This document shows, piece after piece, positions 9,002 through 52,395 of a DNA stretch of 64,000 nt. A program made the position numbers and the translations under genes. The notes beneath the pieces are model-generated. The model ran no database searches and had not been told where the DNA came from. It saw only the letters and a program-made list of their open reading frames with translations. Position 1 is the stretch's first letter. Each line of letters begins with the position of its first letter. The stretch covers positions 1 through 64,000 of the forward strand of contig JAKAFL010000001.1 in the NCBI GenBank assembly GCA_021817945.1, read 5' to 3'. This stretch comes from a bacterium. Lineage in GTDB: Bacteria > Verrucomicrobiota > Verrucomicrobiia > Limisphaerales > UBA11358.

Positions 9002-9192
9002 GCGGTTAAAATACCTCAAAAACAGGGCGTTTCAATTTAAAAATCAACATATCATGATTTGATGATGCGAGTGATTATCCTGTTTTTGAATTGGTCACCA
9101 AAACGTTGCCACTCGCGGATTGACTCTGAATAACGCTTTGTTAAATTTACTTCTCTATTTTTCGTAACAATATTAACTGCACTGATTGAAAT

Positions 9193-11940: not shown

Positions 11941-11960
11941 CCGTTCGATGAACTGGTTTA

Positions 11961-11991
11961 AACCCGCCCGGGTCATCCGGGCGGGTTTTTT
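11961..11991 (+). terminator. Rho-independent terminator of ppdK
   Basis: aacccgcccgg-gtcat-ccgggcgggtt followed by TTTT. Confidence 0.9.
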
Positions 11992-12304
11992 CGTGGAACA
12001 TTGCCTTCATATGGATAGTGATGCGTGTCCTGGATGGCGGCAAATCTCGTTCATGAAAGACATCCCGGCCGCGGTTCCAAGACTCACTGATTAATTCAGA
12101 TGCAGTTGCATTCATGTCACAACCGGGGGCTTGCAAACCTCTGCCTTCGCATCATTAATATCAGGTTGGGACGTTTTCATGCATGGCACTTCTCCTCAAG
12201 TTTTTCTGGATCGAGATACCTGCGAATAAAGCCACCGGGACCAGCGGGATCAAATACTTTTCACTGCGGCTGTCAGCCACAAAAGGCGGTCAGACCTGGG
12301 GTCA

Positions 12305-30163: not shown

Positions 30164-30994
30164 ATGGCCCTCTCAAGTTTGCCAGCACAACGGCCTTTTG
30201 GCGTAACCACCCGTACGGACGCCTGGTGGATGCAGCCGTTGCTGGTGTTCCTCGGGTTTTCCGCGTTCATTATTTATTCCACCTGGGCGGCATTTCATCC
30301 CCTGGCGAATGGGACATGTGCCTACTATTATGACGGCAACGGGGCGGATTATCTTTCGCCGTTTTTCTCGCCGGAGATTTTTGGATACACCAAGCACGCC
30401 TGGTTTGGACCCAAGCCGGGTTGGTGGCCGGGTTGGCTTATGTTTTCACCGGCTTTTTTGGTTCTTTGGGCCCCTGCTGGTTTTCGTTTTACCTGCTATT
30501 ATTACCGAGGCGCCTATTACAAGGCCTTCTGGGCTGATCCCATCAACTGTGCGGTGGGTGAATCCAGGAAAAAGTTCCTGGGAGAGCGTTATTTCCCCCT
30601 TATTCTGCAAAATATTCACCGCTATTTCTTTTATCTCGCTGCGATTTTCGTGTTGATCCTGGCGTATGATGGCTGGCAGGCGCTTTGGTTTCAGGACAGC
30701 GCAGGCGGTAAACACCTCGGGGTGGGCGTTGGCACGCTGGTGATGCTGTTGAATCCCCTGTTTCTGGGCTTGTACACCTTTGGCTGCCATTCCCTGAGGC
30801 ACCTGGTAGGCGGGTTTTTGGATTCCAAATCCAAGGCGCCCACCTGTGCCAAGGCCTACAACTGCGTGAGCTGCCTGAACTCACGCCACATGATGTGGGC
30901 CTGGGTCAGCCTTTTCTGGGTGGGATTCACAGACCTTTATATTCGCCTGTGCGCCATGGGCAAAATCCATGACTTGGTTTTTTTCCATTTCTGA
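30164..30994 (+). CDS. sdhC: Succinate dehydrogenase/fumarate reductase membrane (cytochrome b) subunit, actinobacterial Sdh1-like
   Basis: 276 aa, about 5 TM, immediately upstream of flavoprotein and iron-sulfur subunits. Confidence 0.8.
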   Translation: MALSSLPAQRPFGVTTRTDAWWMQPLLVFLGFSAFIIYSTWAAFHPLANGTCAYYYDGNGADYLSPFFSPEIFGYTKHAWFGPKPGWWPGWLMFSPAFLVLWAPAGFRFTCYYYRGAYYKAFWADPINCAVGESRKKFLGERYFPLILQNIHRYFFYLAAIFVLILAYDGWQALWFQDSAGGKHLGVGVGTLVMLLNPLFLGLYTFGCHSLRHLVGGFLDSKSKAPTCAKAYNCVSCLNSRHMMWAWVSLFWVGFTDLYIRLCAMGKIHDLVFFHF

Positions 30995-35335: not shown

Positions 35336-36610
35336 TTAATTCAAGCGCACCACGCGATAAATCCTTGTGGGATTGGCCAGGGTGTCGGTCACGACCAAGC
35401 TGGCACGCGCAGCCGTGAGGGCCGGACCCAGGTTTTGCCAGGCTTCGGCAAAGCCGTTCCGAAATTGCGCCTGGTAACTTTTTCCGGCCACGGTTTTCCA
35501 GGAAAGTGTAATGACCGGGGAGGAGGAAGGGCTGCTGGCATTGATTTGGAACGGGACGATGACAGAGCGCACCAGTTCGTTATAGGTGTCTGAAACCAGC
35601 AGGGAGCCATCTCGGGCCAAAGCGAGTCCGAAAGGATTGTAAAACCGCCCCATGCCGTTGTTGCCATTCGCTGCGCCGACTTCACCAGAAGCGCCACTGA
35701 CGGTGGAAACGATGCCGTTGGTGTTGATTTCGCGGATGGTTTGGTTGAAGGAATCGGCCACAAACAGATCATCCCACTGGTCAAAAACCAGACCCGCCGG
35801 ACTGCGAAATCGGGCATTGGTCCTCTCGCCGTCAGAGGAGCCATCGCAGCCGGCTGATCCGGCAAAAGTGGTGACCACGGCATTGGAGGTGATCATTCGG
35901 AGGGTGTCGTTGTTGGCATCGCTCACAAATAAATTGCCTTGGGTATCGAAAGCCATTCCCAATGGGCCATTGAACTCGGCATTGGTGCCTGTGCCATCCT
36001 GGCTGCCCCAGATTTGCGGTTTGCCTGCGAAGGTGGAAACGATGCCGTTCGAAAGAAGCCTGATGCAATGGTTGCCACAATCGGCAATGAGCAGGGCGCC
36101 ATTGGGAGCCACGGCCAAGCCTTGGGGCGAGCTGAAGTGCGCCATTCCCGCTGGGCCATCGGCAAATCCTGGATAACCTGCAATGCCTGCAATGGTGGTA
36201 ACCATTCCACCTGGACTTATTTTGCGGATGGTGTTGTTGCCGGTGTCTGAAACGTACAAGTCACCGGAGGGATTTAAAGCCAGGCCGCTGGGGGCATTGA
36301 AAGCGGCGTTGGTGCCGGCCCCATCCGCCGTTCCACTGTTTCCCATGCGTCCGGCAAATACCATCACGAGTCCGTTGGTGGTGATTTCACGAATGACATG
36401 GTTTTGGGAATCTGCAATAAACAAGTCACCTTGGGGGTCGGTGACGATGGCTGCCGGGTCGTCAAAGGTTGCCTGGTCGGTGGGTCCATTGGTTTGGCCG
36501 GCAACAAGAAGCTGGCCAGCCAAAGTGGTCACAGAATCCTGGGCATGCAATCGCAGGGCCAGGTATAATGGCAGACCCAAGGAAAGGAATTTCAGAATCC
36601 TGGATTTCAT
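35336..36610 (-). CDS. Secreted NHL-repeat beta-propeller protein
   Basis: Signal peptide; repeats such as 'GTNAAFNAPSGLALNPSGDLYVSDTGNNTIRKIS'; start overlaps the upstream decaheme cytochrome stop. Confidence 0.88.
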   Translation of the reverse strand: MKSRILKFLSLGLPLYLALRLHAQDSVTTLAGQLLVAGQTNGPTDQATFDDPAAIVTDPQGDLFIADSQNHVIREITTNGLVMVFAGRMGNSGTADGAGTNAAFNAPSGLALNPSGDLYVSDTGNNTIRKISPGGMVTTIAGIAGYPGFADGPAGMAHFSSPQGLAVAPNGALLIADCGNHCIRLLSNGIVSTFAGKPQIWGSQDGTGTNAEFNGPLGMAFDTQGNLFVSDANNDTLRMITSNAVVTTFAGSAGCDGSSDGERTNARFRSPAGLVFDQWDDLFVADSFNQTIREINTNGIVSTVSGASGEVGAANGNNGMGRFYNPFGLALARDGSLLVSDTYNELVRSVIVPFQINASSPSSSPVITLSWKTVAGKSYQAQFRNGFAEAWQNLGPALTAARASLVVTDTLANPTRIYRVVRLN

Positions 36611-39600
36611 TCTCCGCGCCGCATCAGGCGTTCTTCAGTCGGTTGGGCGGACAGCGTTTCAACCTGGTCCACGGCCTGATAGGCGGTTGTGGGTTTTAAT
36701 TCCCTTCCGGAAGCAGTCAGAAGCCTGCCTTCATGCATGTGGACATTTTCGACCGTATAAAGGGCATTGTTTCTTTCGTAAAATGCTTTCATTTCGTCGA
36801 GGTGGAAAGGACGGGAGCCGCGACGGCCAAACACCACGGTTTGATTTCCGCTCTCATCAACCACCCGGTCGCGATCCAAACCGCGTCCCACCGCGACAGC
36901 CGGGGCCCGGGTTGGATACGTGGCAATCAGAATCGGACAAGGCACCGGACTGAAGCCCATGGCTCCCGGAACCGTGTCCGGCGATATCAATTGAAGAACG
37001 CGAAGACCATTTTTACCATCTGCTATGAGGGCAAATTCAGATGCGCTGACCGACCCAACCTGCACGGCGCGGGTGTCATTCAACAATCCTCCTGCATTGA
37101 AGAGAGACTTAAGGCGGGGTTTTTCAGGGTTGGTGATGTCAATCAAGGCAAGCCCATCCGCGCCATCCGCCACATAGGCATAGGTTCGCGCCAGATAGAA
37201 TCGCTGTGCATGCCGCAGTGGGATAAACGCCCCCGGGACAGGACGTGGCTTGGCAGGTTCCGTGATGTCCAGCACCTTGAAACCTTGATCATCCGTGATA
37301 AAAGCATAGCGGAACTGGACGCCTACAGCCTTGGGGTTGTTCAGGCCATGTGTCAGTTCGCCGGCCAGAATGGGGGGTGCCAGGGCATCGTTGCGCAATC
37401 CCACCACAAAAAGACCGTTGGTACCCACCACATAGAGATTGGTTCCAGCCATGCAGGAATCCATGGCGCCGCCAAGTTTGCCTTCAGGATTGAAGCGAAT
37501 GATTTTTTCGCGGTCAAAAAAATTATTGTCCGGGTTGCCATCCAGCAGCGTGCCCACCGAGACCATCACCAACCCCTGCTCAAGATCGGTGACAAAAACC
37601 CAGGCATAAATCGGGCTGACGGGTTGCTCTTCGTTGGAAGGATTTCTCAGGCGCAGCGGATCAATGGCCAAGGTGCTTGGGAGGGTCACACTGGTGGCGA
37701 AGGGTGTTCGCACGCGGGTGCGTTGCCCCAGAGGGGAAACCGGCGCGGTGACTATTTTTTCAGAGAATCCCTTGTTGTTGAGGTTGGCAATATCGAAGAC
37801 TTCAAATCCATCCGAACCGTTGGCGGTATAGAGATACTCGCCCCGCTGGACGAGATCCAGAATGTCATGTGCATCCTTGTGTTCCGATTCCTGGAGCACG
37901 CCATGATGTGTCTTGACGTGTTGGAGATAGTTGTCCGGGTAGGCCAGCTTTTGAAGGTGACTGCCAATGACGGACTGGGGCTCGTCTGCTTCGGTCCAAA
38001 CCACGGCATCCAGGCCGCCTGAACCTTCGCCCACAAAGGCATGCCGTCCAAAAAAGTTCACGGTTCCCGTGCCAAAACCGAGCAAGGAAGCCATCCAGGC
38101 ATTATTGTCATTGGCGGAGGAAAGGTGACAATCCTCGCAATTTTTGGTGGTTCCGACGCCGCTGGTGGTGTGAGGAAAATGAGGGTTATAAGCCTGGCCG
38201 CTGTAACCCTCGGCGCTGATGGTCTGCTGCTGGGCATAAACCCATTCGCGGTTGGCATTCTGGGAGCTGACCAGCACGGCGGATGATGACCGAAGGACGG
38301 CAAGGCGGTGGTGTTTATAGTCAGCGTCTATTCCCAATTGAAACACATCATCACGCACCACTTGGGGATTGTAGGAGGTGAAATTACGGTCGGTTACGCC
38401 TTCGAATTTATTGAGGGCCACGCGCTGGTTGGCGCGCATGGGCAGGTGGCATCCAAAGCAGGATGTGGCCCAGGAGGTGTGGCAAATCTGGCAGGAAACA
38501 TTGTCATTGTCATGGGCCAGGCAGCGCTGGCACCGGGCGGCAGAAGGCACGGCGCCCCAGGTTTTTCCGTCCCGCCAAAGAGTTTTGGCATAGGCGGACT
38601 CGGGATCATAATGCGGGGAAGCCGGATTGATGGTGTCCATGGTCTGGGGAACTTCCCAAGTTAAATCAGGAGACATGGAGGAGCGTTGATACAGGCGGTT
38701 GTCCTGCCAGAAGAAGCGCGGTCCCCATGGTGTGTTGTCTGCCTGCAAATCCACGGGCGCTATTTTATCCCCTTTCCAGATGCCGCCATTGCCGCTGGTT
38801 ACCAAAGTCGGGCGCTTTTCGATCGTGCCATGGCAGTCAATGCATTCGATGGTTGTGGCAGCGCGGGGTTCTCCATACAACATGCCGTTCCCATGCACAT
38901 CCACGTCAAAATGACAATCCACACACTGCATTCCATGCGCAAGGTGCTCATCCTTCAAATGAACAGCCAGGACGAATTTATGAGGGTCGTCCGGCTGAAT
39001 GATCCTGTCTTCCCTATCTCGAAGGTTACCCTGGCGATCGTGCTTGAAGACAGCGCGAAAAATCCAGCCGTGACCGTGATAATCGGCAAACTGTGTGTTC
39101 TTCAGCTTGGGATTAAGCTCCGAAACCTTCTCCAAAAAATCCAAATTTCCCCACAAACCACGTGCTGCCGCCGCCTCCGGATTATCCTGGATTGATCGAG
39201 TAAGATACCCCGGTGTGACATTGCGTTGTTGCTTGGGATATAAGAATTCCCCATCGGTTTCCTCATCCCACCAGGTAAAACCCAGGTAGGGGTTCACGAA
39301 TAAATTGCCCTGGTGCATGTGGCAACTCATGCATTGGCTCGAGGGGATGGAGCGTGTGAACTGATGCCTGATCGGATGACCGCGCTCGTCTTTTCTTATG
39401 GTTTTATCCGCGGTAAAGCTGAGCCCCTGGTTGCCATACTTTGCATACCATCCGGAGTCCGTGGGGGAACGGTCGTTGGCATAGACAACATGGCAAGCGG
39501 TGCAACCGCTGTTGCGGTAATCCCCGGGATGATTATTGGATCCCATGAAATCCAGAAGCGGGTCGTGGAGCCGGGTTTTTTGAAGGTTCAGATAAACAGG

Positions 39601-40449
39601 GTCAATGCGGTTTAAGGTTCCCAGGCCGCGTTCACTCAAACGCCGCGCTGGCTTGCCATCCTCTTCAAATGGATTTGGAATGCCAAGCTGGAGAGGCGCT
39701 TCACCTCCCCGCTCAAAGATGCGAAGGATGTTGCTCGGTGGGGCTGTTTCAAATCGGGGCAGGGGTTCTATGAAGGGCAAAACCGCCCATTGCTTCGTCA
39801 TTTGGGGTGTCACCGGCACGGGGCTTTCCAAGCGTAACGGCACGCCGTTTGCCCCGTAAGCCTGGCCAAAACGGTAATTCTTGGCGTCGCTCGCGCCGTT
39901 ATTGTACAGGGCCGCACCCCAAAGCATGGCTCCATGCCGCATCATGCTGTGGCTCACCTGCCTTACGATCTCGCCATGGCACAGGCCGCAGGCCTTTTCC
40001 GCCACGCGCAAATCCCCCGGGTTTACAAATTGAATAAACTCCGGCGATTCATGGTTTAGCAACACACTGGAATCATTGGGGTTGGCGGCGCTCAGCCAGA
40101 AGGCGGGATAGCGGGGAGCGACGTGAGCCTGGGTCTGCGTAAGGCCGGGAGTTGGATTGCCTCCATGGCAATCCACGCAGCCCAATACCACATTGGGCGA
40201 GGCATGCATGGATTCCACCCCGGAATGACATTCCAGACAGCCTCGGGATTTGCGATCTGCCTCGGCTTGGGATTGGTCAATCCGGTTTGGTGCAGGAAAG
40301 TTGGGCCAGGGGATTTGCGAAGATGATTTGGGAACGGAAATGGCGGGGCCCGATCCATCCTGTTGTGCCATGAGGGCGGCCATTCCACCCAGCCAAAGTG
40401 TAATCAGCAGAAATGCTTGCCAGCGTGCCAGTGTCATGGATGTTTTCAT
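36607..40449 (-). CDS. Large exported decaheme c-type cytochrome with C-terminal LVIVD-like repeats
   Basis: 1280 aa; ten CxxCH (CLECH, CVDCH, CGLCH, CTACH, CMSCH, CVDCH, CIDCH, CQICH, CFGCH, CEDCH) plus degenerate CQRCLAH; C-terminal repeats like 'YAYVADGADGLALIDITNPEKPRL'. Confidence 0.9.
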   Translation of the reverse strand: MKTSMTLARWQAFLLITLWLGGMAALMAQQDGSGPAISVPKSSSQIPWPNFPAPNRIDQSQAEADRKSRGCLECHSGVESMHASPNVVLGCVDCHGGNPTPGLTQTQAHVAPRYPAFWLSAANPNDSSVLLNHESPEFIQFVNPGDLRVAEKACGLCHGEIVRQVSHSMMRHGAMLWGAALYNNGASDAKNYRFGQAYGANGVPLRLESPVPVTPQMTKQWAVLPFIEPLPRFETAPPSNILRIFERGGEAPLQLGIPNPFEEDGKPARRLSERGLGTLNRIDPVYLNLQKTRLHDPLLDFMGSNNHPGDYRNSGCTACHVVYANDRSPTDSGWYAKYGNQGLSFTADKTIRKDERGHPIRHQFTRSIPSSQCMSCHMHQGNLFVNPYLGFTWWDEETDGEFLYPKQQRNVTPGYLTRSIQDNPEAAAARGLWGNLDFLEKVSELNPKLKNTQFADYHGHGWIFRAVFKHDRQGNLRDREDRIIQPDDPHKFVLAVHLKDEHLAHGMQCVDCHFDVDVHGNGMLYGEPRAATTIECIDCHGTIEKRPTLVTSGNGGIWKGDKIAPVDLQADNTPWGPRFFWQDNRLYQRSSMSPDLTWEVPQTMDTINPASPHYDPESAYAKTLWRDGKTWGAVPSAARCQRCLAHDNDNVSCQICHTSWATSCFGCHLPMRANQRVALNKFEGVTDRNFTSYNPQVVRDDVFQLGIDADYKHHRLAVLRSSSAVLVSSQNANREWVYAQQQTISAEGYSGQAYNPHFPHTTSGVGTTKNCEDCHLSSANDNNAWMASLLGFGTGTVNFFGRHAFVGEGSGGLDAVVWTEADEPQSVIGSHLQKLAYPDNYLQHVKTHHGVLQESEHKDAHDILDLVQRGEYLYTANGSDGFEVFDIANLNNKGFSEKIVTAPVSPLGQRTRVRTPFATSVTLPSTLAIDPLRLRNPSNEEQPVSPIYAWVFVTDLEQGLVMVSVGTLLDGNPDNNFFDREKIIRFNPEGKLGGAMDSCMAGTNLYVVGTNGLFVVGLRNDALAPPILAGELTHGLNNPKAVGVQFRYAFITDDQGFKVLDITEPAKPRPVPGAFIPLRHAQRFYLARTYAYVADGADGLALIDITNPEKPRLKSLFNAGGLLNDTRAVQVGSVSASEFALIADGKNGLRVLQLISPDTVPGAMGFSPVPCPILIATYPTRAPAVAVGRGLDRDRVVDESGNQTVVFGRRGSRPFHLDEMKAFYERNNALYTVENVHMHEGRLLTASGRELKPTTAYQAVDQVETLSAQPTEERLMRRGE

Positions 40450-40451
40450 GG

Positions 40452-42788
40452 CTAATATGTGCAGGTCAATGCTATCAACGCGCTGTAAGGCAGGGCATCC
40501 GCATTGCCCACGGGGCTATTACCGTCGAATCCGGGCACAGGGTTGGGGTTGGTGCGGTAAATATCCCGATAACCGCTGCCTGGAATCAGCGCGCCAAATC
40601 CGGTGGAAAGAATGACATTATCCGTCAAAAAGGGCCTGTATTGAAATCCAATGCTCAAGTCCCAACCCACTTCATTGCCAATGTTGGAGGTAAAAAGAGC
40701 CTGTTTAAGCGGATCCGTTTGCGCAAACATGATGTAATTGGCATTCAAGAAAGTTCGCAGTTTGGGGGTCAGGTCAAATTCCGCGCCCAAACCGTAAATA
40801 AAAACGCCAGGATTGACAAAGTTGGCCTGGCCTTCGGTTTTGCTGCTGCGCATGTCTGGCAGGAGACTGTTCTCGTTTTTGAGGTTCACCAATGTGCCAC
40901 CCAGGTTAAACCCCTGCCGCGACCAAAAACTAAAGGGACCCCCTATGAAATTTGGATTGTCCACGATGGAATCAAAACCTGAAGCCGTGCCGCCAGATGC
41001 ATTGCCATCGCCTGAAGCATAAAAAAAGGAGGCCTTGTAGCGCGCCCAGTCATGGTCATAGGCTATTTCCAACGATGCCATTTGCGCATTCACATAGACC
41101 GGATGCCCGGCGAGACCGTTGAATTCATCCCGTCCTAGAACCTGGTAAAATTGGTCCGAAAGATTGAACCTGCCGATATGGCCGTCCCCACCCCACCCAA
41201 GGTAGTAGGCCTGCAGGTTATGGGGAACCACAGTGCCAAGGGGTTCAGGACGGACTAGAAACCCATTGTCGTCGTAATGCAGTCCGCCGTTGTCAAAGTT
41301 GCCCAGAAAACTCCATTCACTGGTATAACCTTGCCAGATGAAGTCCTGGCGGTAAAGATTCGCCACCACCACGCGCTGGTTTCGCTCGTTGAAAGTGTTT
41401 AGCCCGGAATCGGTGTCCTTCTCCCGAAGGTCAAAGACGGCCAGATTGAACTGGTAGAGGTTGTTGTCGTAATTGCCAAACAAACGAATGCCGGTATTAA
41501 TGTCGTTGAAAACAAATCCACGAAAATCGGCGTTAAAGGGCTGGTTCCCGATCCGCACAGAGACAAAATCATAATTGTCAGACAGGTCAGCCAGATGAAA
41601 CTCCAGGTAGGCCTGCTGGAGTGAGAAGTAGGTCATGGTTCTTTCGGTGCTGGCACTGTTGCGATAACTGCCCGCTGGGCCAACCTGGCCATTGAGCAGG
41701 GAGCCCACATCCCCAGGATTGCGAACGAAGCCGTTGGATGGCGGCGCAGTATTGTTTCCAAATCCAAGCACGCCGCGCGGATCGGGCGATACCACCCCGG
41801 TCTCCTGGGCTTGCAGGTAGTTTACATTGAATACTGGTTCCACATTAATGGCCCAATCCACCGGGCGGAAGGATGTGTCCCCCTGAAAAAAATTGAAATC
41901 CAAGGCCAGGTAGTTCTCCGTGCTCAGGACATTGCCTTGCCCATAAAATTCATATTCGCCCGGCACAACGCCGCTGACCTGGCTTGGGGTGGGAATCCTC
42001 TTGAATTCGGTGTCGCTTTCAGCCGAGGCGGTTAAATCCAGGAAGACATCCTGTCCCAGGATGGGCAAATCGCCCTTGAGATAACTTTGGCGGTACGGCT
42101 GCCACAACGCAGGCTCCGGCGCGTCAAAGGGATCCTCAATGCTTCCGCTGGTGTAGCGGTTCCAAGGCTCGAAACCAATTCGCCAGCGGTCAGGCACGGG
42201 CGTGGAATCAGCCGGGTTGTCAGCCGGTGTTTTTGAATAATCTGGATTAAAGAATTGCTGGTCAATTTTGAGTTCGCGACGGACGTTTTGACGGGGCAGG
42301 GTCAGGTTCGGGGGTAAAGGTTCGGACCCGTAGGCGGGCGGGGGTGGATTGGTGTTGGGAACCAGTTCCACGGTGCGGAGGTTGCGCCTGGGCAGCTTAA
42401 GGTCATTTGGAATGGCTGGCGGGATGAATTGTGCCGGGGCGACCGGATCGTGAAACCATGGTACCAAGGTGGCTGCCGCTGGGTTACTGGCGCAAAACGC
42501 GCCCGGATCAGGATTGAAGCCGGGTATGGGCGGTGTGTTGGAGGAGATCACGATACGCAGAATCCATGCGGGCTGGGTGACGGCAGGCGCAGGCAACTGA
42601 ACTGGATTGGGATCCGGATTGAAATTCCGGGGCGAGGCGGGCGGTGTATTGGTGCTGACGGCTTGGTGCGGTTTCAAGGAATCCTCCCCCCGCAGCGACA
42701 TGGCGTTGCCAGCCACCATTCCAGCCACAAACAGCCGGGGTAGAAAATGAAGGGCCAATTCTGATTTAGGCAGCCGCATTTGATACAT
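40452..42788 (-). CDS. Candidate outer-membrane beta-barrel (porin-like) protein with proline-rich N-terminal region
   Basis: 778 aa from ATG 42788 (MYQMRLPKS); signal-like N-terminus; alternating amphipathic strands rich in Y/F/W/N; C-terminal aromatic residue (...ALTCTY). The longer 970-aa ORF start would overlap the divergent gene. Confidence 0.7.
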   Translation of the reverse strand: MYQMRLPKSELALHFLPRLFVAGMVAGNAMSLRGEDSLKPHQAVSTNTPPASPRNFNPDPNPVQLPAPAVTQPAWILRIVISSNTPPIPGFNPDPGAFCASNPAAATLVPWFHDPVAPAQFIPPAIPNDLKLPRRNLRTVELVPNTNPPPPAYGSEPLPPNLTLPRQNVRRELKIDQQFFNPDYSKTPADNPADSTPVPDRWRIGFEPWNRYTSGSIEDPFDAPEPALWQPYRQSYLKGDLPILGQDVFLDLTASAESDTEFKRIPTPSQVSGVVPGEYEFYGQGNVLSTENYLALDFNFFQGDTSFRPVDWAINVEPVFNVNYLQAQETGVVSPDPRGVLGFGNNTAPPSNGFVRNPGDVGSLLNGQVGPAGSYRNSASTERTMTYFSLQQAYLEFHLADLSDNYDFVSVRIGNQPFNADFRGFVFNDINTGIRLFGNYDNNLYQFNLAVFDLREKDTDSGLNTFNERNQRVVVANLYRQDFIWQGYTSEWSFLGNFDNGGLHYDDNGFLVRPEPLGTVVPHNLQAYYLGWGGDGHIGRFNLSDQFYQVLGRDEFNGLAGHPVYVNAQMASLEIAYDHDWARYKASFFYASGDGNASGGTASGFDSIVDNPNFIGGPFSFWSRQGFNLGGTLVNLKNENSLLPDMRSSKTEGQANFVNPGVFIYGLGAEFDLTPKLRTFLNANYIMFAQTDPLKQALFTSNIGNEVGWDLSIGFQYRPFLTDNVILSTGFGALIPGSGYRDIYRTNPNPVPGFDGNSPVGNADALPYSALIALTCTY

Positions 42789-42834
42789 GAGAAAATGTTT
42801 ATTTTCAGAAAGCAAGTGATTATCCTGAATCATT

Positions 42835-44412
42835 GTGAAAAGTTGGTTGACGATGTTTCTGGCTGCTTGTCTGGCAGGAGTGGGAGCACGCGGCGGCATG
42901 CTGCAGGCCGATGTCAGGCAAATAATCCAGCAAGCAGTGTCGCGGGCGGAAACCTTGGGGCCGCCCCTGAGCACCCAGGCGGTGGTCGCAGTAACCGACC
43001 GGGAAGGTTGGGTGCTGGGGGTCTGGTCCATGAATGCCACCCTGAAAGGCAATGACCCTCTGGTGGGCGAGGCCATTGCCAAGGCCGGCACGGCCGCGTT
43101 TTTAAGCAGCGACAACAATGCTTTCAGCACGCGCACGGCGGGCGATATTGTGCAACAGCATTTTCCTCCCGGCATTGATAATACTCCGCCCGGCCCGTTG
43201 GTGGGGGTCAACTTTTCCCAACTCGCCTTTTCTGATATTAATAAATTCAAAGGTCCCGGCAGTTTGATTGGTTTTGACAGTTCTCCGGGGAACGCGCTGG
43301 TTCCGGTGCCACTTCCGGTCACCGGTGGGTTGGAAGGCACTCCAGGCGGTTTGCCGCTTTTCATAAATGGTCAATTGGTTGGGGGCGTTGGCGTGGCCGG
43401 AAACGGTGTGCCTCCAACAGACGTCACTCCCGCAGTGGTTTCAAGTCCAGACAGTGACGAGGATATGGCGCTGGCCGCGCAGGTTGGTTACGCGCCGCCA
43501 CCGGCCATCCTGGGTTCACAAGTGTTTATCAACGGCATCCGGTTGGAATATGCCGAGAGTTCCACTGTGTCCAGCCCATTGATTCCCTTCGCAAACCTTC
43601 CTGGAGGCCCGGTTTTTCCTTACTCTATTATCTCATCACCTCCTCAATTTCCTTATCCCATTGCGGTTTTTGGTGGCGAAACCGGTCAGATACGGCAACC
43701 CATCATGAATGACCCATCCGCCCTGCCGCTGCCGGGAAACACGGCCCGGTTGACAGCGGCGGAGGTCACCAACATTATCGTGGCGGCGGCCAACCGCGCC
43801 CGTACCACCCGCGCTGGCATCCGGCTTCCCAGAGGCCTTAACGCCCAGGTTTTCATCACGGTAGTGAATAATCCCGGTTCCAATGGCGTGCCTCCGGTGG
43901 TGCTGGGTACTTTCTGCACCTCCTCCAATGCAACGCTCTTTGGCTGGGACGTGGCAGTGCAAAAGGCCAGGACGGCCGTGTTTTTCTCCTCCTCATCGTA
44001 TGCTTTTTCCACCCGCTGCGTGGGCTTTCTGGGACAGGAGTATTATCCACCCGGCATTGATAATACCCAGCCCGGATTGTTTTTTGGCCTGCAGGAACAA
44101 TATTCCATCATCACCCCGGCACCGGAACTAATCACCAACCCCGTCAACAATGCCGTGTTTACAAGTTTCACCAATACAGACCCCAACCTGCCCAATGGCA
44201 TTACCATCTTCCCGGGAGGTTTTCCTCTTTATCGAAACGGCGTTTTAATCGGCGCCATCGGAGTCAGCGGCGATGGGGTGGATCAGGATGACCTGATTTC
44301 CGCCAGCGGCGCCTCCTTGTTTCTTGCCCCGGTGCCCCTTCGTACTGACCAGTTTCAATACCGTGGGGCTTTGCTGCCTTTTGCAAAATTTCCCCGAAAC
44401 CCAGGCTTGTAA
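42835..44412 (+). CDS. Secreted protein with two HbpS/GlcG-like (DUF336) domains
   Basis: Signal peptide; duplicated 'STQAVVAVTDREGWVLGVWS...AFLSSDNNAFSTRTAG...FPPGIDNTPPG' and 'AQVFITVVNNPGS...AVFFSSSSYAFSTRCVG...YPPGIDNTQPG'; GTG start. Confidence 0.8.
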   Translation: MKSWLTMFLAACLAGVGARGGMLQADVRQIIQQAVSRAETLGPPLSTQAVVAVTDREGWVLGVWSMNATLKGNDPLVGEAIAKAGTAAFLSSDNNAFSTRTAGDIVQQHFPPGIDNTPPGPLVGVNFSQLAFSDINKFKGPGSLIGFDSSPGNALVPVPLPVTGGLEGTPGGLPLFINGQLVGGVGVAGNGVPPTDVTPAVVSSPDSDEDMALAAQVGYAPPPAILGSQVFINGIRLEYAESSTVSSPLIPFANLPGGPVFPYSIISSPPQFPYPIAVFGGETGQIRQPIMNDPSALPLPGNTARLTAAEVTNIIVAAANRARTTRAGIRLPRGLNAQVFITVVNNPGSNGVPPVVLGTFCTSSNATLFGWDVAVQKARTAVFFSSSSYAFSTRCVGFLGQEYYPPGIDNTQPGLFFGLQEQYSIITPAPELITNPVNNAVFTSFTNTDPNLPNGITIFPGGFPLYRNGVLIGAIGVSGDGVDQDDLISASGASLFLAPVPLRTDQFQYRGALLPFAKFPRNPGL

Positions 44413-44458
44413 AATTCCCGTCCCTGCTCACCCGAGTCTTTGATGAAATCATACCCTT

Positions 44459-46021
44459 TCATCGCCGGGCCACTTGGGGATTGTGATAAATGTGGCATTC
44501 TGTGCAGGCGCTATTTATTCCTCCACGGGGGCTGTGACACTCCATGCAGGTTTCCTCCGAGGGCAGCAACAGGTCGGAAGTCTGCCTGCTTTGCAAGGCT
44601 TCGTGGCACTTTTCACAAGAAATGTCCCGATGGGCCCAATGGCTGAAGCGTGCATGGGACAGCCAGTGGGTGGTTTGCTCCGGGATGGTCACCGCTGGGG
44701 TTTCGCCAGCTATTTTTACTTCGTGGCAATAGGCGCATCCGGGAAAAATGGCGCGGCCCGCCCCTCGGACCTCGCCCGTTTTCACCTGCGGACCATGTGT
44801 GGCCGAGCTCAGGAATATCCATTTTGCCAGCATATCGGCATCCCCAAATCGAGCCTGGATGTCCGCCAGCTTCGACCGGGCTTCCGAGTCTGGATCAGTT
44901 GAATGCTCCCGCGTGGCTAGGTCCAGGTACTGCCTGGGCAAAGAATGTAGAAAGGCCAATACATGGTCGGTGCTGCCGTGGGGAACCTCCAGTTCGGGTG
45001 TTTCAGGGTCAAACTGGAGCGAATGGCAAACGCGACAATTTTTATCGTAGGTGACCGGCATCATGAACGTGCCCGAGGCATCCGGCTGGTGGCAGAAGCC
45101 GCAGTTCAATTTTGCGCCGCCAGGCAGTGGTGGAATGGTGGGGCTGCCAAGATGCAGGGCATGGTCAAACTTGAGTGTGTCGGGATTGCGCCACTTTTCA
45201 ACGATGAAACGAAATTGCGGATGGTCCAGGCCAAAATGGTGAAGCGCAACAAAACGGGGGGTTGCGGCCATGACTGCGGGGTCTGAGTGGCAAAAATCGC
45301 ATTGGGAATCGGTGATTTCAGCCATTTTGATGCCATGATGTTCCGAATGACAGAAAGCGCAGGAAACCGGCGGCGCCTGGGGTTGGTGGAATTGGTGAGC
45401 GGCATGACAGGCCAGGCAGGAGGCATCCATGGCCGAAGGCTCTGCCGCACGCGCGGCAATGAGACCATGAAAATTAAAAATTCCAGGACTTGAGTGCAGG
45501 GCTTCCGCAAGAATGTGCCCCGGTCCACGGCCTCCTGCGGTGTGACACGCGCCACATCGCGGCGCAAGATGGTTCGCTTGCGCCATTGACGAAAAAACCG
45601 CGCCGGTATGGGGGCTGGAAATCGCTCCGGGGTTGAAAAAGAGGTCGCGCCAGGCAGGCTCTCCCATGGCTAATAGAAGGGTGGCCAATGCGATCGTCAC
45701 CACCCCAAACGTGATGCGCTTTCGCACCTGGCGCAGTGAAGGTTTCGGAGTGCAGGAGGAAATTGGATGGCAACACCGTCCGTCAGGAAGCGGCCCAGAC
45801 TCGCATTCACCGCTCGATCGGGTGCAAAGCCATCGTCCTTTGGTTTCACCAGGCTGGATTTTGAGTGTGGGAATGCACTCGCCCGAAGCCCGGCACCGGC
45901 CCCAATTATCCGGGCCCAGCGGACACGTTTTGCCTTCGCAGGAATGGCCGCAAATCCAATTGTGGTTTGGGCGCGCGTACTCATTTGAATCAAACGACGG
46001 CGCTGGAAGCTGATCGCTCAT
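44459..46021 (-). CDS. Membrane-anchored decaheme c-type cytochrome with Cys-rich N-terminal segment
   Basis: ATG at 46021 overlapping upstream TGA; ten CxxCH (CGACH, CLACH, CAFCH, CDFCH, CGFCH, CRVCH, CAYCH, CEKCH, CMECH, CTECH); N-terminal 'WICGHSCEGKTCPLGPDNWGRCRASGEC' before a single TM. Confidence 0.9.
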   Translation of the reverse strand: MSDQLPAPSFDSNEYARPNHNWICGHSCEGKTCPLGPDNWGRCRASGECIPTLKIQPGETKGRWLCTRSSGECESGPLPDGRCCHPISSCTPKPSLRQVRKRITFGVVTIALATLLLAMGEPAWRDLFFNPGAISSPHTGAVFSSMAQANHLAPRCGACHTAGGRGPGHILAEALHSSPGIFNFHGLIAARAAEPSAMDASCLACHAAHQFHQPQAPPVSCAFCHSEHHGIKMAEITDSQCDFCHSDPAVMAATPRFVALHHFGLDHPQFRFIVEKWRNPDTLKFDHALHLGSPTIPPLPGGAKLNCGFCHQPDASGTFMMPVTYDKNCRVCHSLQFDPETPELEVPHGSTDHVLAFLHSLPRQYLDLATREHSTDPDSEARSKLADIQARFGDADMLAKWIFLSSATHGPQVKTGEVRGAGRAIFPGCAYCHEVKIAGETPAVTIPEQTTHWLSHARFSHWAHRDISCEKCHEALQSRQTSDLLLPSEETCMECHSPRGGINSACTECHIYHNPQVARR

Positions 46022-46833
46022 GCCGCTCCTCGCGAGAATGCGCACACCAAAACGATGTGCCAAACAGTGAAAATGAGAAGCCCATAGGTGAGGGGGATAT
46101 GGACAAAAAGCCAGGTTTTTAGTGTCAACTGGAGTGCCCGGTGATAATCCAAGCCATCTTTCTGGCACATCAACTGTTCCAAACGGAACATTTTTTCCTG
46201 ATCAATTGCGTCAGCAAAACGGCGCTGGTCCTCCAACATGGCCAGCAAGGCGGCCAGTGGACGGCGGGATTCAAACAAATGCAACCAGAAGTTTTTTGGA
46301 CGGGCAAAAAACGGGGCCAGGTGAACCACATAAAATCCGGCAAGAACGGACGATTTGGCCTCTTTCCCCAGCACTATGTTTTCGGCCTCAGTTCGAAGCC
46401 GGTTGCGGATGAGGGGTATGTTTTCAAAAATCACCTCCCCGCCGCGCGTGGCCAGTCGGCGGGGCAGAATGCGGCTGAAAAAAAGTCCAAACACGCCACT
46501 GGCGCTGACCAGGATGAAAAGGCCTGCCAGACAATAGTCAAAGCCTCCCTGTGGAGGGTGAAAGTTCAAGTGGATTCCGAAGAGCAGGGTGGTGAAGAAC
46601 CCCAGGTAAATATGTATTTGCAGCCAGTGTTCCGATCTGCCCAGCGGCAGAAATGGAAGTTTCTTACGCATATTATAGAGTGCCAGGATTAAAATGGCAG
46701 CCAGCAGCGCCCATCCGGTTAAATAGGGAAAATACGGCAGCCCCATGAATCTTTGGCGGCACTCCAATGCTGCGGCGGATGCCGCAAGCAAACTGAACAG
46801 GCCCACGAAAACCTGGCGGCGGAAACGGTTCAT
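46018..46833 (-). CDS. Cytochrome b-like integral membrane protein
   Basis: About 5 hydrophobic segments; paired intramembrane His 'LQIHIYLGFFTTLLFGIHLNFH' and 'LFVHIPLTYGLLIFTVWHIVLV'; overlaps neighbours on both sides. Confidence 0.7.
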   Translation of the reverse strand: MNRFRRQVFVGLFSLLAASAAALECRQRFMGLPYFPYLTGWALLAAILILALYNMRKKLPFLPLGRSEHWLQIHIYLGFFTTLLFGIHLNFHPPQGGFDYCLAGLFILVSASGVFGLFFSRILPRRLATRGGEVIFENIPLIRNRLRTEAENIVLGKEAKSSVLAGFYVVHLAPFFARPKNFWLHLFESRRPLAALLAMLEDQRRFADAIDQEKMFRLEQLMCQKDGLDYHRALQLTLKTWLFVHIPLTYGLLIFTVWHIVLVCAFSRGAA

Positions 46834-48557
46834 AGCTTGAGCCAGCCCGCCAAATCATCAAGCTGGTTTAAATTCATCCGCGCCAGGGCGCCATGCGGGC
46901 AGGCCCTTTCGCAGGCCGGTCCGCCCCGATTTTCGACGCACAGGTCACATTTGGTCGCCTTCACAATCGGTTTCATCTCCGGATCCACCAGAAATTCCCC
47001 GCGTTTATTACGGATTTCCACCATGCGTATGGCTTCGTAGGGGCAATTGTTATGGCACGATTTGCAGCCAATGCAGGTCGAGGGATTGATCACCACCTGG
47101 CCGGCAAAGGACTCACGGTGAATCGCTCCTGTGGGACATCCAATCATGCAGACCGGGTCTGAGCAATGCATGCAGGCATTGGCCACCATGAGCCGCCCCG
47201 AGGAAGGGCCATGCCGGAGGAAACGAGGGTTGTTATCATGCGTGGAGGCACACGCCCTCACACAATCATCGCAGCGCGTGCATCGGTCCAGATTGATCAC
47301 CATGGCCGCGGTGCCGTTATAAAAACGGTTGGCCGCCAGAAACTCCATGACTTCCCCGCCCACTTTTTCTCGCGCAGCAGTCGAGCCGGCCTTGGACGGC
47401 AGGAAAGGTTCCGGTGCAGGCCCCACCATGGGCGGAAGTTCTGATACCGGCAGCGACGGCAGCACGATACTCTCCATCACATGGGTCGGAATCACCAGCA
47501 GATGGGTATAGCCAATGGCCCTCAGGGTGTATTGCATGCTGACCGGGGCCGATTTGCGGCGCCAATTATGCGCAATTTCCTCCAGGCCAAATACCTGGCC
47601 GGCTCCAATATAATTCAACGTGCGCTCCCCAACCCCCAATTTCTGGCTGACTCGCGCAAATCCGGCCCGCAAAAGCACCACTCCGTTGGGATAATCCCCC
47701 TCGGATAAGATAACAGGCTCACTTTCCGGGCGGATATTACCCGAGTGTGCCAGGCGCTTATATTCTCCAGACCAGTCGTAATCCCCAAAGGTGGCGAATT
47801 CCACGGAGGCGGCAACCTGCTCGAGGCGGGCCTTGTCCAGGTTCCGCAGCAGGGGAATGGCCCCGAGAAAACTGGCCAGGGCGCGTTCACGGTAAATCCG
47901 GTTGATGTGTTCCCGCAGCGCGCCGTCATACTTCATCATGTCGCGCAATCCTTGCCACCGGATTTCCAATAGTTCGGAATCGTCACTATCGGCAAAAATC
48001 GTCGAGGTCCGCGCCATGCGGCTCAGCGCGGCTATTTCTCCGAAAAAATCCCCGACCGCTAATTGCGCGGTGCGGTGTTGATTCAAAACCCTGGGAATAT
48101 CCTGGAGGAATACCCTGATTTCCTGTCCGGACTGGCGCGAGCCAAGTTCCTCTGACTGGCTCAGGTTTTTGGGATCAATGAATTCAGTAGGCCGGGAGGG
48201 ATTCCAAATCTGTGCCAAGGTGCGCAGCAACCCCTTCCTACCAGTGGCATGCCGGCCAAGCAGGTCCGGGACCAGGTCCGGGCTCAATACCACACGTGCC
48301 GCGCCACGTAGTATCAGGAAGGCCGAGGTTCCGTAGTCGCCTTGGCGTACAATGATTTCCCCCTTTCGAAGTCTGACCATCCGCGTGTCATGCCGCAGGA
48401 TCTCGCGCAGGGGCAGGCGCTGGGGAAACTGGGCGCGATCCATCCTGCTGAAAGGCTCAATGCCCAGCAACCGATCCACATCGGTTTCCGTCATCCGCTC
48501 ATCAAAAGCCGTGTCCCAGCGTTGCGGACGTTCCAAGATGGTCAATGCGGCAGGCAT
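46830..48557 (-). CDS. Fusion of two cyclic nucleotide-binding domains and a NrfC/DmsB-like ferredoxin with four [4Fe-4S] motifs
   Basis: PBC-like 'GDFFGEIAALSRMARTSTIFA' in the first cNMP domain; second 'GQVFGLEEIAHNWRRKSAPVS'; four Cys sets CTRCDDCVRAC, CMHCSDPVCMIGCP, CIGCKSCHNNCP, CDLCVENRGGPACERACP. Confidence 0.92.
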   Translation of the reverse strand: MPAALTILERPQRWDTAFDERMTETDVDRLLGIEPFSRMDRAQFPQRLPLREILRHDTRMVRLRKGEIIVRQGDYGTSAFLILRGAARVVLSPDLVPDLLGRHATGRKGLLRTLAQIWNPSRPTEFIDPKNLSQSEELGSRQSGQEIRVFLQDIPRVLNQHRTAQLAVGDFFGEIAALSRMARTSTIFADSDDSELLEIRWQGLRDMMKYDGALREHINRIYRERALASFLGAIPLLRNLDKARLEQVAASVEFATFGDYDWSGEYKRLAHSGNIRPESEPVILSEGDYPNGVVLLRAGFARVSQKLGVGERTLNYIGAGQVFGLEEIAHNWRRKSAPVSMQYTLRAIGYTHLLVIPTHVMESIVLPSLPVSELPPMVGPAPEPFLPSKAGSTAAREKVGGEVMEFLAANRFYNGTAAMVINLDRCTRCDDCVRACASTHDNNPRFLRHGPSSGRLMVANACMHCSDPVCMIGCPTGAIHRESFAGQVVINPSTCIGCKSCHNNCPYEAIRMVEIRNKRGEFLVDPEMKPIVKATKCDLCVENRGGPACERACPHGALARMNLNQLDDLAGWLKL

Positions 48558-49864
48558 CAGGCGTCAAGAACCAGGTCGTTTTGCGGCCGACAAATGCAGG
48601 TCAGGCAGGTGCCCGGGTCAGGCGCGGATGCGGGCTTTTTCAGGTAATCCACAGCGCCGGATTTGATCGCCACGCCGCACGAGCCGCATCCGCCAGCCCT
48701 GCATCCAGAATCAATTTTAATGCCCAGGGATTCGGCAAAAGACAGCAGGTTTTCAGACGAGGGCTCCCAACGCACCGTTCGGGCGGACCTTGCAAAGGTA
48801 ATGGTGACTTTCTGAAGGCGGGTGGTTTGTTCCGGGGAAGGTGAAGCCGCTTTTTTCTTCACGCTGGCGGGGCCAAAAGCCTCGAAATGCACGCGGTCCT
48901 CCGGCACGCCCCAGGCTTCCAGGCCATCGGTCAGGCTTTTCATGAAAGGCCCGCTACCGCAAAGGTAATACTCGAAATTGTTGGATGGAAGGATTTCCTT
49001 GACCCATTCCACGCCCACGCGGCCCTCGTAGTGATAATCCCTGCCTTTCACATCCTCCGGCCCGGGCTTGCTGTAGGCCACGTGCAGGTGAATGTTTTCA
49101 TGTGCGGCAGCCAGCGCCGCCAGTTCCTCTTGGTGGATGTGTTCCTGCCGGTTACGGACGCCAAAAAACAAATAGGCCTCCCGCTTCGTTCCGCTGGCCG
49201 CAATCGCATTGGCCATGCTCAGAATCGGGGTAATCCCCACTCCGCCTGCCAGGAGCACGACCGGATTATTTTTGGTCATGTCCAGAAAAAAATGCCCGCT
49301 GGGTGCCTTCACGTCCAGTATGTCCCCAACCTTGACCTTGTCCGTGAAATAACTCGAACCAGCCCCGGGTGGAAATTCAGGCCTGTCCAAAGGCGCTTTT
49401 TCCTTCTTGATGGTCACCCTGTAATAGTCGCGATGGTCCGGGCTGTCTGACAGGGAATAGCAACGGATCAGGGGTTTCTCGCGCCCGGGAATTTTCAACT
49501 GAAAGGTCAGATATTGCCCGGGTTTGAAATAAGGCAAATCCCTGCCATCGTGGGGTTTTAGATAAAAAGAAAAAACCCCGTCGCATTGGCGAATTTTTTC
49601 GGCGACACTGAATTTGCGCAGGCCATTCCAGCCGGAAGCGGCCATTTCTGCCTCACGGCATCGTTGGCGGGTTTCCTGGAGCCGGGTCTGGAGGATGGCC
49701 AGGGTCAGCTTTTGCTGCCGGGCTTCTCCAATTATCCTGATAAGGGAGCGCGCCATTTCCAGAACCAGCCAGAGCAATAAAGCGGAGATCAGGATCAGGC
49801 CAAGCGCGAAAGCGGTTGCGCTGCTGCCCGGGATTCCAAGGGAATGATTTAGGGTTGCATTCAC
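48557..49864 (-). CDS. Membrane-anchored FNR-type flavin oxidoreductase with C-terminal plant-type [2Fe-2S] ferredoxin
   Basis: N-terminal TM plus coiled-coil; 'RCYSLSDSP' (FAD), 'LAGGVGITPILSM' (NAD(P)), 'CRAGGCGSCGVAI...CLTC' ([2Fe-2S]). Confidence 0.92.
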   Translation of the reverse strand: MNATLNHSLGIPGSSATAFALGLILISALLLWLVLEMARSLIRIIGEARQQKLTLAILQTRLQETRQRCREAEMAASGWNGLRKFSVAEKIRQCDGVFSFYLKPHDGRDLPYFKPGQYLTFQLKIPGREKPLIRCYSLSDSPDHRDYYRVTIKKEKAPLDRPEFPPGAGSSYFTDKVKVGDILDVKAPSGHFFLDMTKNNPVVLLAGGVGITPILSMANAIAASGTKREAYLFFGVRNRQEHIHQEELAALAAAHENIHLHVAYSKPGPEDVKGRDYHYEGRVGVEWVKEILPSNNFEYYLCGSGPFMKSLTDGLEAWGVPEDRVHFEAFGPASVKKKAASPSPEQTTRLQKVTITFARSARTVRWEPSSENLLSFAESLGIKIDSGCRAGGCGSCGVAIKSGAVDYLKKPASAPDPGTCLTCICRPQNDLVLDA

Positions 49865-49893
49865 TTAAATATTCTATTAACAAAATTAAAGCC

Positions 49894-51048
49894 TTGCGCA
49901 CAACTTTTTATTTCCCAGCCCCCGCCCTTGTGGCCGTGATAAGCGCGGCCATTTACACCGGCTTGTGCAGTGCGGAGACGCCCGGCAAAATCCTGGGAGC
50001 CTCTTCCTGCGCCAGTTCCAGTTGCCATGGCGGCGGCGGCGCTTTGCACAACCAGTTCCTCGTCTGGTCTCTTCGGGATTTTCACTCCTCACGCCCAAGC
50101 GCCATGCTTGCCACCGCCCGAGCCAGCCAAATAGGCGGCGCGTTGAACATTGGCGACGTCACCGCCGATCCACGCTGCACGATCTGTCACGCACCTCTCC
50201 TGCTTGCGCCTCAATCGCTGCGAGGCAGCCTGTTTCAGCCAGGCGAGGGGGTTTCTTGCGAATCATGCCATGGTCCGGCGGAACACTGGATACGTTCCCA
50301 CACCCGTCCAGATTTTACCGAGGCCGACCGGGTGGCTGCGGGGATGCGGGATCTGGAGAATCTCTACATCCGGGCCAATGTCTGCGTGGCATGTCATCAG
50401 AATGTGTCCAGCGACCTCATTAATGCCGGGCACCCCGTTTTGATGTTTGAAATGGATGGGCAGTGCGCGGCTGAACCGCGGCATTGGACTTCGGAAAAGA
50501 ATGGAAATGGTGCCCAGGCCTGGCTCGTGGGACAGGCTGCCGCATTGCGCGAAATGAGTTGGCAATGGTCCAATGGCGGCACCCCTTCGGACCATGAATC
50601 CAACCGGTGGACAGCCTTGGTTTGGCTTTTAAAAACAGCGCAACCTGAAACGGACTTCAAAATCCTTGCCGACGGGAATGGCGCAGACCTGGGCAAAAAA
50701 GCCCGTTCTTTGCAGGACCAGGCTGATGAACTTGCACGCCATGTGGCAGCCCAGCAGTGGACACCTGATGCCACCCGCAGACTGCTTCAACGACTCGCTG
50801 CCTCCTCACCGGATTTTCGCAATTCAAACACCTCCACACTCCAGCAGGCCGATCGTGCCGGACGCCTGGTTTTGGCTTTGGACCGGTTGGTGGGATCCTT
50901 GCCTGAATTGAAGACACGCCAACCATTGCAGTCTGCCTTGGATCAGATGTTTGCGGAGGCTCAATCCATTCCCGATTTCAATCCAGTGCAATTTTCCACC
51001 ACTCTGGACCAATTCCGCGCGGCTCTTCCATGGCAAAATAGCCCATAG
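49894..51048 (+). CDS. Exported c554-like multiheme cytochrome
   Basis: CxxCH at CTICH, CESCH, CVACH plus N-terminal CASSSCH (CX4CH). TTG at 49894 yields a plausible signal peptide (RTTFYFPAPALVAVISAAIYTGLCSAE); start uncertain. Confidence 0.8.
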   Translation: MRTTFYFPAPALVAVISAAIYTGLCSAETPGKILGASSCASSSCHGGGGALHNQFLVWSLRDFHSSRPSAMLATARASQIGGALNIGDVTADPRCTICHAPLLLAPQSLRGSLFQPGEGVSCESCHGPAEHWIRSHTRPDFTEADRVAAGMRDLENLYIRANVCVACHQNVSSDLINAGHPVLMFEMDGQCAAEPRHWTSEKNGNGAQAWLVGQAAALREMSWQWSNGGTPSDHESNRWTALVWLLKTAQPETDFKILADGNGADLGKKARSLQDQADELARHVAAQQWTPDATRRLLQRLAASSPDFRNSNTSTLQQADRAGRLVLALDRLVGSLPELKTRQPLQSALDQMFAEAQSIPDFNPVQFSTTLDQFRAALPWQNSP

Positions 51049-51168
51049 GCCAGGCCAAGTAAGATTCCGGGCTGTTTCCACTGATCCTGCTGGATTGGCG
51101 CGTTCGAAGTTGTCGCTCTGGAATTTTGCTTGCAACAGGGGCGTGGGGGGTTGAACTTGTCATTGTCC

Positions 51169-52395
51169 ATGAACAGCACCTTTCATGAATGGGTGGTTTT
51201 CGCTGCCTATGGAGTTCCTTCCGCCCTCGTCTTTGTGGGCATCATTCTGGTCCTGCGCCATTTTCAATTGCCAGTTCTTTGGTTGTTCAAAATGCTGGTC
51301 AGCGTGCCTATTTTTTTTCTGTGCATCAAAGTGGCTGCTTCCATGGGACTGTTGGGGGTATTGATGATTGTCGGCTTGGGTTTTGTCCTCGCTTTCATAT
51401 GGGCTCCGGATTTGGCAGCAGCGGTTTGCAGTCCTTTGACAAATATGTTGGATGGAGGCGGGGTTGCCCCGGAACTCAAGGCATCGTATTCCATTGCCAT
51501 GGCTCATCGCAAAAGGGGACGGTACCCTGAAGCCATCCAAGCGGTGAGGGGGCAATTGGAGCGTTATCCCATGGATTTCGAGGGTGTTCTGCTGCTGGCC
51601 GGGATTCAGGCTGAAAATTTGTGGGATCTGCCCGGGGCTGAGAATACCTTGAGCCATTTTTGCAATAACCCCAAGGCCCCTCCCAACCAGGTGGCCGCAG
51701 CATGGAATGCCATGGCCGACTGGCATCTTAAAGTGGGCAAGGACACGGATTCGGCTCGAGTTTCGTTGCAGAGGATCATCAACTCCTTTCCGCAATCGGA
51801 ATTGGCGCTCCGGGCGGAACAACGGCTGGCTCACTTGGTGGAGACTGAAGGTGTTTTGCTGGGCCAAATGAGCGATACGCCTTATCTACTTGCCCCAGGG
51901 GTTCAAGATATTGGCCTGCTGGATTCATCGGCCTTTCTCAAGCCAAAGGAGGAAAGCCCTGTTCAACGCGTCTCAAAATATGTTCAGCATCTGGACCAGC
52001 ATCCCCACGATTCCGAGGCACGCGAAAAATTGGCGCTGGTTTATGGCAGAGAACTGGGGAGGCTGGACCTGGCAACCATTGAATTACGACATTTAATTGA
52101 TGAAAAACGGCACAGCCCCAAGCAGATTGCCAGCTGGCTGGATCTTTTGGCCACGCTACAGATTGAGGGGGGAGCCAATGTGGCCACAGTGCGGGCCACG
52201 CTTCAAGAAATCGTGGATTCGTTTCCAAGCCTGCCGTTGGCCGACGCCACCCGGCGGCGGCTGGTGCGGATTGATTCGGAAATCAAAAAAAAGGAGACCA
52301 AACCGGCCGAAATCAAGATCGGCAACTACGAGCAAAATATCGGTCTCAAATACGGCGCCCCCCGATACGGCGCCCCGGATGGCACGGGAGGCTAG
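51169..52395 (+). CDS. Membrane-anchored TPR-like protein
   Basis: Three N-terminal TM segments followed by helical repeats with TPR-like spacing; ATG at 51169. Confidence 0.6.
   Translation: MNSTFHEWVVFAAYGVPSALVFVGIILVLRHFQLPVLWLFKMLVSVPIFFLCIKVAASMGLLGVLMIVGLGFVLAFIWAPDLAAAVCSPLTNMLDGGGVAPELKASYSIAMAHRKRGRYPEAIQAVRGQLERYPMDFEGVLLLAGIQAENLWDLPGAENTLSHFCNNPKAPPNQVAAAWNAMADWHLKVGKDTDSARVSLQRIINSFPQSELALRAEQRLAHLVETEGVLLGQMSDTPYLLAPGVQDIGLLDSSAFLKPKEESPVQRVSKYVQHLDQHPHDSEAREKLALVYGRELGRLDLATIELRHLIDEKRHSPKQIASWLDLLATLQIEGGANVATVRATLQEIVDSFPSLPLADATRRRLVRIDSEIKKKETKPAEIKIGNYEQNIGLKYGAPRYGAPDGTGG

Follow-up and report, generated by a model that had tools for sequence, protein, structure and literature searches.

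A conserved Verrucomicrobiota gene cluster encoding a candidate NAD(P)H-linked electron conduit with a PCC4-type inner module and a distinct outer module

To our knowledge, known outer-membrane conduits are fed from the quinone pool, or an exchange of electrons with that pool is proposed for them. Barrels of the MtrB/PioB family have 26-28 strands. PCC4 is a putative porin-cytochrome system comprising a porin and cytochromes with 4, 5 and 10 hemes, and lacking an extracellular multiheme cytochrome. Its inner-membrane protein (IMP) is marked by SGXXG together with two copies of WX3HX13H, and subgroup II has a PF13247 Fe-S gene upstream of the IMP gene (He et al., 2017, Front Microbiol, PMC5566968). 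The same study places PCC4 in Zetaproteobacteria that oxidise Fe(II) and proposes that it oxidises a donor (PMC5566968). A porin-multiheme cytochrome complex of Verrucomicrobia, with an octaheme cytochrome beside a porin, is described by He et al. (2017, mSphere, PMC5615132), who name IMCC26134 as a carrier. The ExtHIJKLMNOPQS system of Geobacter sulfurreducens, described for selenite and tellurite, contains a porin, several multiheme cytochromes, a cytochrome b and an Fe-S protein (PMC5877670).

The cluster analyzed here is located in a Verrucomicrobiota genome of 3.76 Mb, from a soil or freshwater bacterium, and its block of eight conserved genes looks like a wire. Coordinates refer to the window, the whole 64,000-nucleotide stretch of DNA that was analyzed. 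The open reading frames listed in an earlier note on this DNA were all recovered in place, with gene identities as it had described. The candidate electron input (48557..49864, minus strand) is a transmembrane-anchored FAD/NAD(P)H reductase with a C-terminal [2Fe-2S] ferredoxin domain (FNR; Pfam NAD_binding_1, FAD_binding_6 and Fer2; conserved 2Fe-2S cysteines). It is followed on the same strand by a protein with two cNMP-binding domains and four predicted [4Fe-4S] clusters (cNMP-FeS; 46830..48557; Pfam cNMP_binding and Fer4_11/PF13247), a putative cytoplasmic relay and possible gate, by a predicted bis-heme cytochrome b of the inner membrane (46018..46833), for which DUF4405 was the sole, weak Pfam match, and by dhcN (44459..46021), with a Cys-rich cytoplasmic N-domain, one transmembrane helix and a predicted periplasmic decaheme wire. 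The start of dhcN was placed at 46021, not 46168.

A secreted, duplicated HbpS/GlcG-like protein is encoded on the plus strand (42835..44412; PF03928 in two stretches). The candidate outer-membrane beta-barrel (40452..42788, minus strand) gave no Pfam match; its open reading frame, 40452-43364, was too long and 42788 was the better start. Next on the minus strand are a decaheme c-type cytochrome with a signal peptide and a C-terminal LVIVD beta-propeller (decaheme-LVIVD; 36607..40449; ten CXXCH, PF08309), the candidate outer terminus, and a secreted NHL beta-propeller, probably accessory (35336..36610; PF01436), which adjoins the cluster in Limisphaerales and some others. At the far end, a secreted tetraheme c554-like cytochrome (49894..51048, plus strand; PF13435) has three CXXCH and one CX4CH. 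Its open reading frame (49816-51048) contains no ATG start, and the likely start, a TTG at 49894, is uncertain. Pfam searches supported the LVIVD, double HbpS, cNMP and Fer4, FNR/NAD/Fer2, C554 and NHL assignments. The earlier estimate of about 23 c-type hemes agreed with the 23 CXXCH counted (10 in decaheme-LVIVD, 10 in dhcN, 3 in the c554-like protein), and the extra CX4CH brings the cluster to 24 probable c-hemes.

A TPR gene at 51130-52395 was rejected as a cluster member, being absent beside the clusters of relatives. Elsewhere in the window, a succinate dehydrogenase/fumarate reductase flavoprotein gene (31019-32842, plus strand) is preceded by a 276-residue open reading frame that gave no Pfam match (30164-30994, plus strand) and may be its membrane subunit.

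The inner half of the cluster resembled PCC4. The cytochrome b carries the IMP signature of PCC3/PCC4, with WX3HX13H at residues 70 and 241 and SGVFG at residue 112; both WX3HX13H motifs were present in 29/29 cytochrome b relatives longer than 200 residues and SGXXG in 25/29, and the Sphingobium homolog has both types of motif. As in subgroup II, a PF13247 gene lies directly upstream of the IMP gene, and the cluster also has tetraheme and decaheme cytochromes and a porin gene. It differs from PCC4 in lacking the pentaheme, in the place of which stands a second decaheme with an LVIVD propeller, and in the additional double HbpS and NHL genes. PCC4-type clusters were located in Verrucomicrobiota (L147, L148, L157, L158 and L160, from relatives G057, G052 and others), with a 5-heme cytochrome, porin, FNR, 4-heme cytochrome, cNMP-FeS, IMP and 10-heme cytochrome at L147 2037-12619 and similar loci. 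The cNMP-FeS protein of L160 has an FHA domain.

Identities to proteins of these clusters were 51% for the FNR (L147), 48% for cNMP-FeS, 44% for cytochrome b and 28% for the decaheme. The barrel showed no kinship with the porins of the Verrucomicrobiota PCC4-type clusters (hhalign probability 1.2%), and decaheme-LVIVD was unrelated to their pentaheme. Plain PCC4 membership, judged against these Verrucomicrobiota clusters and not the original PCC4 sequences, was rejected, as pentaheme and porin differ. By protein similarity the inner module is nevertheless homologous to the PCC4-type inner module. The earlier note had recognised no described system in this gene combination; that stands for the outer half, and the inner half has to be withdrawn from it.

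The decaheme-LVIVD protein was used as the query against 85,462 species genomes. A relative was encoded at 419 loci, of which 80 were kept, at 55 to 97% identity. By record title these come from Limisphaerales, Opitutae, Spartobacteria and Verrucomicrobiaceae, a spread that is approximate because titles of metagenome-assembled genomes (MAGs) are often wrong. In Opitutae, including the complete genome of IMCC26134, FNR, cNMP-FeS, cytochrome b, dhcN, barrel and decaheme-LVIVD follow one another, all oriented the same way, and c554 diverges from them. Verrucomicrobiaceae have two back-to-back runs, c554-barrel-decaheme-LVIVD and FNR-cNMP-cytochrome b-dhcN. These arrangements point to two natural modules, inner and outer. 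The double HbpS gene adjoins the cluster in many relatives, and in Verrucomicrobiaceae and Sphingobium the c554 and barrel genes are collinear.

Among 59 relatives the parts of the set were found jointly or were wholly missing: dhcN was present in 18/21 against 0/38, cNMP-FeS in 17/21 against 0/38, and the barrel in 20/21 against 0/38 (Fisher p 2e-11 to 8e-15, uncorrected for kinship). The modules lie on separate contigs in G008, G011, G026, G033, G040, G041 and G057, so that the linkage is more than mere proximity. The gene order of barrel and decahemes was kept across Verrucomicrobiota, the synteny on which the earlier note had made its proposal depend. At a variant cluster (L127), a protein with an adenylate/guanylate cyclase domain and TPR (10932-13358, minus strand) adjoins dhcN, beside which no cNMP-FeS gene was seen. 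The cluster was also observed at 64-76% identity at L065, L113, L057, L080 and L088, under MAG titles of Proteobacteria, Methylacidimicrobium or Akkermansia muciniphila that are probably wrong.

A plasmid tblastn search returned the system only from Sphingobium and Sphingopyxis, with nearly the whole set on Sphingobium plasmids and the outer module on a Sphingopyxis plasmid. In both, c554, HbpS, barrel and decaheme-LVIVD form one run in that order; in Sphingobium, dhcN, cytochrome b and cNMP-FeS lie on the opposite strand. Identities to the Sphingobium homologs were 45% over the full length for decaheme-LVIVD, 35% for the barrel, 33% for HbpS, 28% for dhcN and 29% for cNMP-FeS. Immediately upstream of the conduit operon in Sphingobium is a two-partner secretion pair, one protein ShlB/FhaC-like and the other very large (L128 467-8620); no such pair flanks the Sphingopyxis copy (L129).

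FNR is missing from Sphingobium, whose cNMP-FeS protein carries a fused Pyr_redox flavoprotein domain instead. Nothing else speaks as strongly for pyridine-nucleotide input, with NAD(P)H as the partner, as this unrelated flavoprotein at the same position in the circuit. It bears directly on a conduit running inward, in which Fe(II), Mn(II) or reduced humics would be oxidised at the surface and the quinone pool would receive their electrons by way of the decahemes and cytochrome b. Such a direction is in keeping with an inner module homologous to that of PCC4-type clusters, with the donor oxidation proposed for PCC4 in Fe(II)-oxidising Zetaproteobacteria (PMC5566968) and with an IMP signature that suits a quinone-reactive cytochrome b. 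A conserved NAD(P)H-binding flavoprotein with an unrelated substitute speaks against it, since it indicates a pyridine nucleotide as the partner, and at neutral pH the reduction of NAD+ by Fe(II) requires an input of energy. We consider inward flow unlikely.

Ligands were scored as conserved when kept in at least 95% of sequences from Verrucomicrobiota and Sphingobium relatives. At this threshold dhcN retained all ten CXXCH and exactly ten other histidines, cytochrome b exactly four histidines (Sphingobium included), the cNMP-FeS protein 16 cysteines, and decaheme-LVIVD every CXXCH except the first (nine of ten) together with 13 other histidines. The c554-like heme motifs were also conserved among relatives. 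From the alignments, such conservation across two phyla is far above chance. A candidate second histidine for each of the ten dhcN hemes is expected for electron transfer and not for catalysis, and the conserved histidines of dhcN and decaheme-LVIVD fit bis-His electron-transfer hemes. The heme density of dhcN (35.5 residues per heme) is close to the wire-like ratio of ∼33 in MtrA (PMC5566968); decaheme-LVIVD has 70.5 residues per heme across its heme stretch. Residues 1-95 of dhcN form the conserved Cys-rich domain, which gave no Pfam match; Sphingobium has an FHA-like domain in its place, and L087 and L127 lack it.

AlphaFold2 modelled the C-terminal propeller of decaheme-LVIVD with good confidence; the heme region was poorly modelled and too weak for comparison. 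With a signal peptide and a propeller the protein may be exposed at the surface, and the lack of a lipobox in most decaheme-LVIVD proteins counts against regarding surface attachment as established.

The product of 40452-42788 was confidently predicted by AlphaFold2 as a beta-barrel, as the earlier note had supposed, with ∼18 long strands at residues 248-777 (counted from the listed elements), most above 90 pLDDT, following a disordered, Pro-rich N-terminus. The best Foldseek matches were AlgE (3rbh and 4afk, E about 1e-16, top 3.5e-16), followed by 18-stranded Occ/OprD porins; MtrB was not among the 50 best. No match to the MtrB family was obtained for any of 51 barrel members, of which five weakly matched Alginate_exp. 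Of the suggested MtrCAB-type conduit, the barrel is therefore retained as a prediction, and the large MtrB-type sheath is not, at ∼18 strands and AlgE/OprD size. It would be unsafe to presume that a barrel of 18 strands, far narrower than MtrB, encloses a decaheme in the manner of MtrAB.

An AlgE-type fold with occasional Alginate_exp matches would also suit a system with no wire across the outer membrane, in which NAD(P)H drives a reductase of the periplasm or outer membrane that acts on a soluble or polymeric substrate, the barrel passes substrate or product and HbpS binds heme or iron. The conservation of the secreted HbpS accords with this, as do the local resemblance of decaheme-LVIVD to octaheme nitrite reductase (ONR; E 5e-4) and its weak match to ExtM (58.6 bits, cut-off 800). 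The ONR similarity spans only two hemes, however, and the 13 additional conserved histidines of decaheme-LVIVD suffice for bis-His ligation of all ten of its hemes, leaving no obvious catalytic heme. A reductase of this kind appears improbable. An NrfA/ONR-type enzyme was rejected on the extent of that two-heme patch, and ExtM membership on its score. A characterised soluble enzyme family, which the earlier note had considered as the opposing outcome, was not matched by the cytochromes over their length.

The reading that we favour, with somewhat better than an even chance of being correct, is a two-module conduit carrying electrons outward from NAD(P)H to an extracellular acceptor. We infer direction, outer-membrane crossing, surface exposure, cNMP gating and acceptor as follows. 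NAD(P)H would reduce the FAD and then the [2Fe-2S] cluster of the FNR, from which electrons would pass to the four [4Fe-4S] clusters of the cNMP-responsive protein, to the bis-heme cytochrome b and, across the inner membrane, to the membrane-anchored periplasmic decaheme dhcN. The c554-like protein and decaheme-LVIVD, at the 18-stranded AlgE-type barrel, would carry them across or to the outer membrane; double HbpS and NHL would be accessory parts of the outer module. Humic quinones, Fe(III), Mn(IV), oxygen or a bound cofactor may be the acceptor. This direction is the opposite of that proposed by He et al. for PCC4 (PMC5566968).

Gating of the conduit by cyclic nucleotides is suggested by the cNMP domains, by the CpdA-like phosphoesterase gene that adjoins dhcN in Sphingobium and by the cyclase-domain gene beside dhcN at L127. 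If electrons moved outward over the inner membrane and no protons went with them, membrane potential would be dissipated and not built up, which suggests a role in redox balancing or surface reduction and not in energy-conserving respiration. A fuller version is possible but doubtful: a pyridine-nucleotide-fed, cNMP-gated exporter in which a small AlgE-type barrel with a decaheme-propeller terminus is a new design, acting as a redox valve or surface reductase, not in anaerobic respiration, and spread by plasmids into aerobic sphingomonads. If the outward conduit is correct, the redox state of the cytosol would be tied directly to the cell surface by an NAD(P)H-linked and possibly cNMP-gated pathway. 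Extracellular electron transfer would then reach Verrucomicrobiota that are common in soils and lakes, as well as aerobic Sphingobium, which can be cultured and in which it is testable. The 18-stranded barrel would test the minimum size of a cytochrome sheath. This cluster and the PCC4-type clusters also show one inner-membrane module joined to outer-membrane modules of quite different kinds.

As in porin-cytochrome complexes generally, a predicted barrel gene adjoins multiheme cytochrome genes and is conserved together with them. With MtrCAB and MtoAB of Shewanella and Sideroxydans the cluster shares a periplasmic multiheme cytochrome, an outer-membrane barrel and a further decaheme; its barrel has ∼18 strands where theirs have 26-28, and its input is NAD(P)H-linked, without CymA. 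No match to the DmsE/MtrA families was obtained for dhcN, which gave only weak HmcA/TmcA matches far under the cut-offs. MtrB/MtrA membership was rejected, with no family matches and AlgE as the best fold.

The porin, multihemes, cytochrome b and Fe-S protein of Ext are also represented here; the cluster lacks the Rieske protein and rhodanese of Ext, and its LVIVD, cNMP and FNR components are not noted for Ext (PMC5877670). In common with the Verrucomicrobia complex of the same phylum it is a candidate porin-cytochrome complex, and IMCC26134 holds both loci, but the octaheme beside a porin (PMC5615132) is lacking here. An octaheme-type locus, with a DmsE/GSU2203-like cytochrome and a porin of 718 or 763 residues, was instead located elsewhere in the host genome (L142) and in IMCC26134 (L139). 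At L142 (G000:C8:120000-139900), 4503-12765 encodes an octaheme-like DmsE/GSU2203-family lipoprotein with seven CXXCH counted, the 718-residue barrel and a pair of 9-heme proteins, and a CbcL-like protein with 11 hemes is encoded nearby; the L139 counterpart (6423-11271) has an NrfH-like 6-heme protein. These barrels showed no similarity to that of the cluster, and identity with the octaheme complex was rejected, the locus being separate. L142 and L139 fit the complex of PMC5615132 and represent a third, separate candidate system.

Literature searches on LVIVD with cytochromes, cNMP with multiheme cytochromes and Sphingobium with multihemes returned nothing describing the present system. On the protein comparisons, its outer module of AlgE-type barrel, decaheme-LVIVD and double HbpS differs from the PCC4-type and MtrCAB modules. 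What is known here looks like the inner half, of the little-studied PCC4 type, and what is new looks like the outer half, which is different and undescribed.
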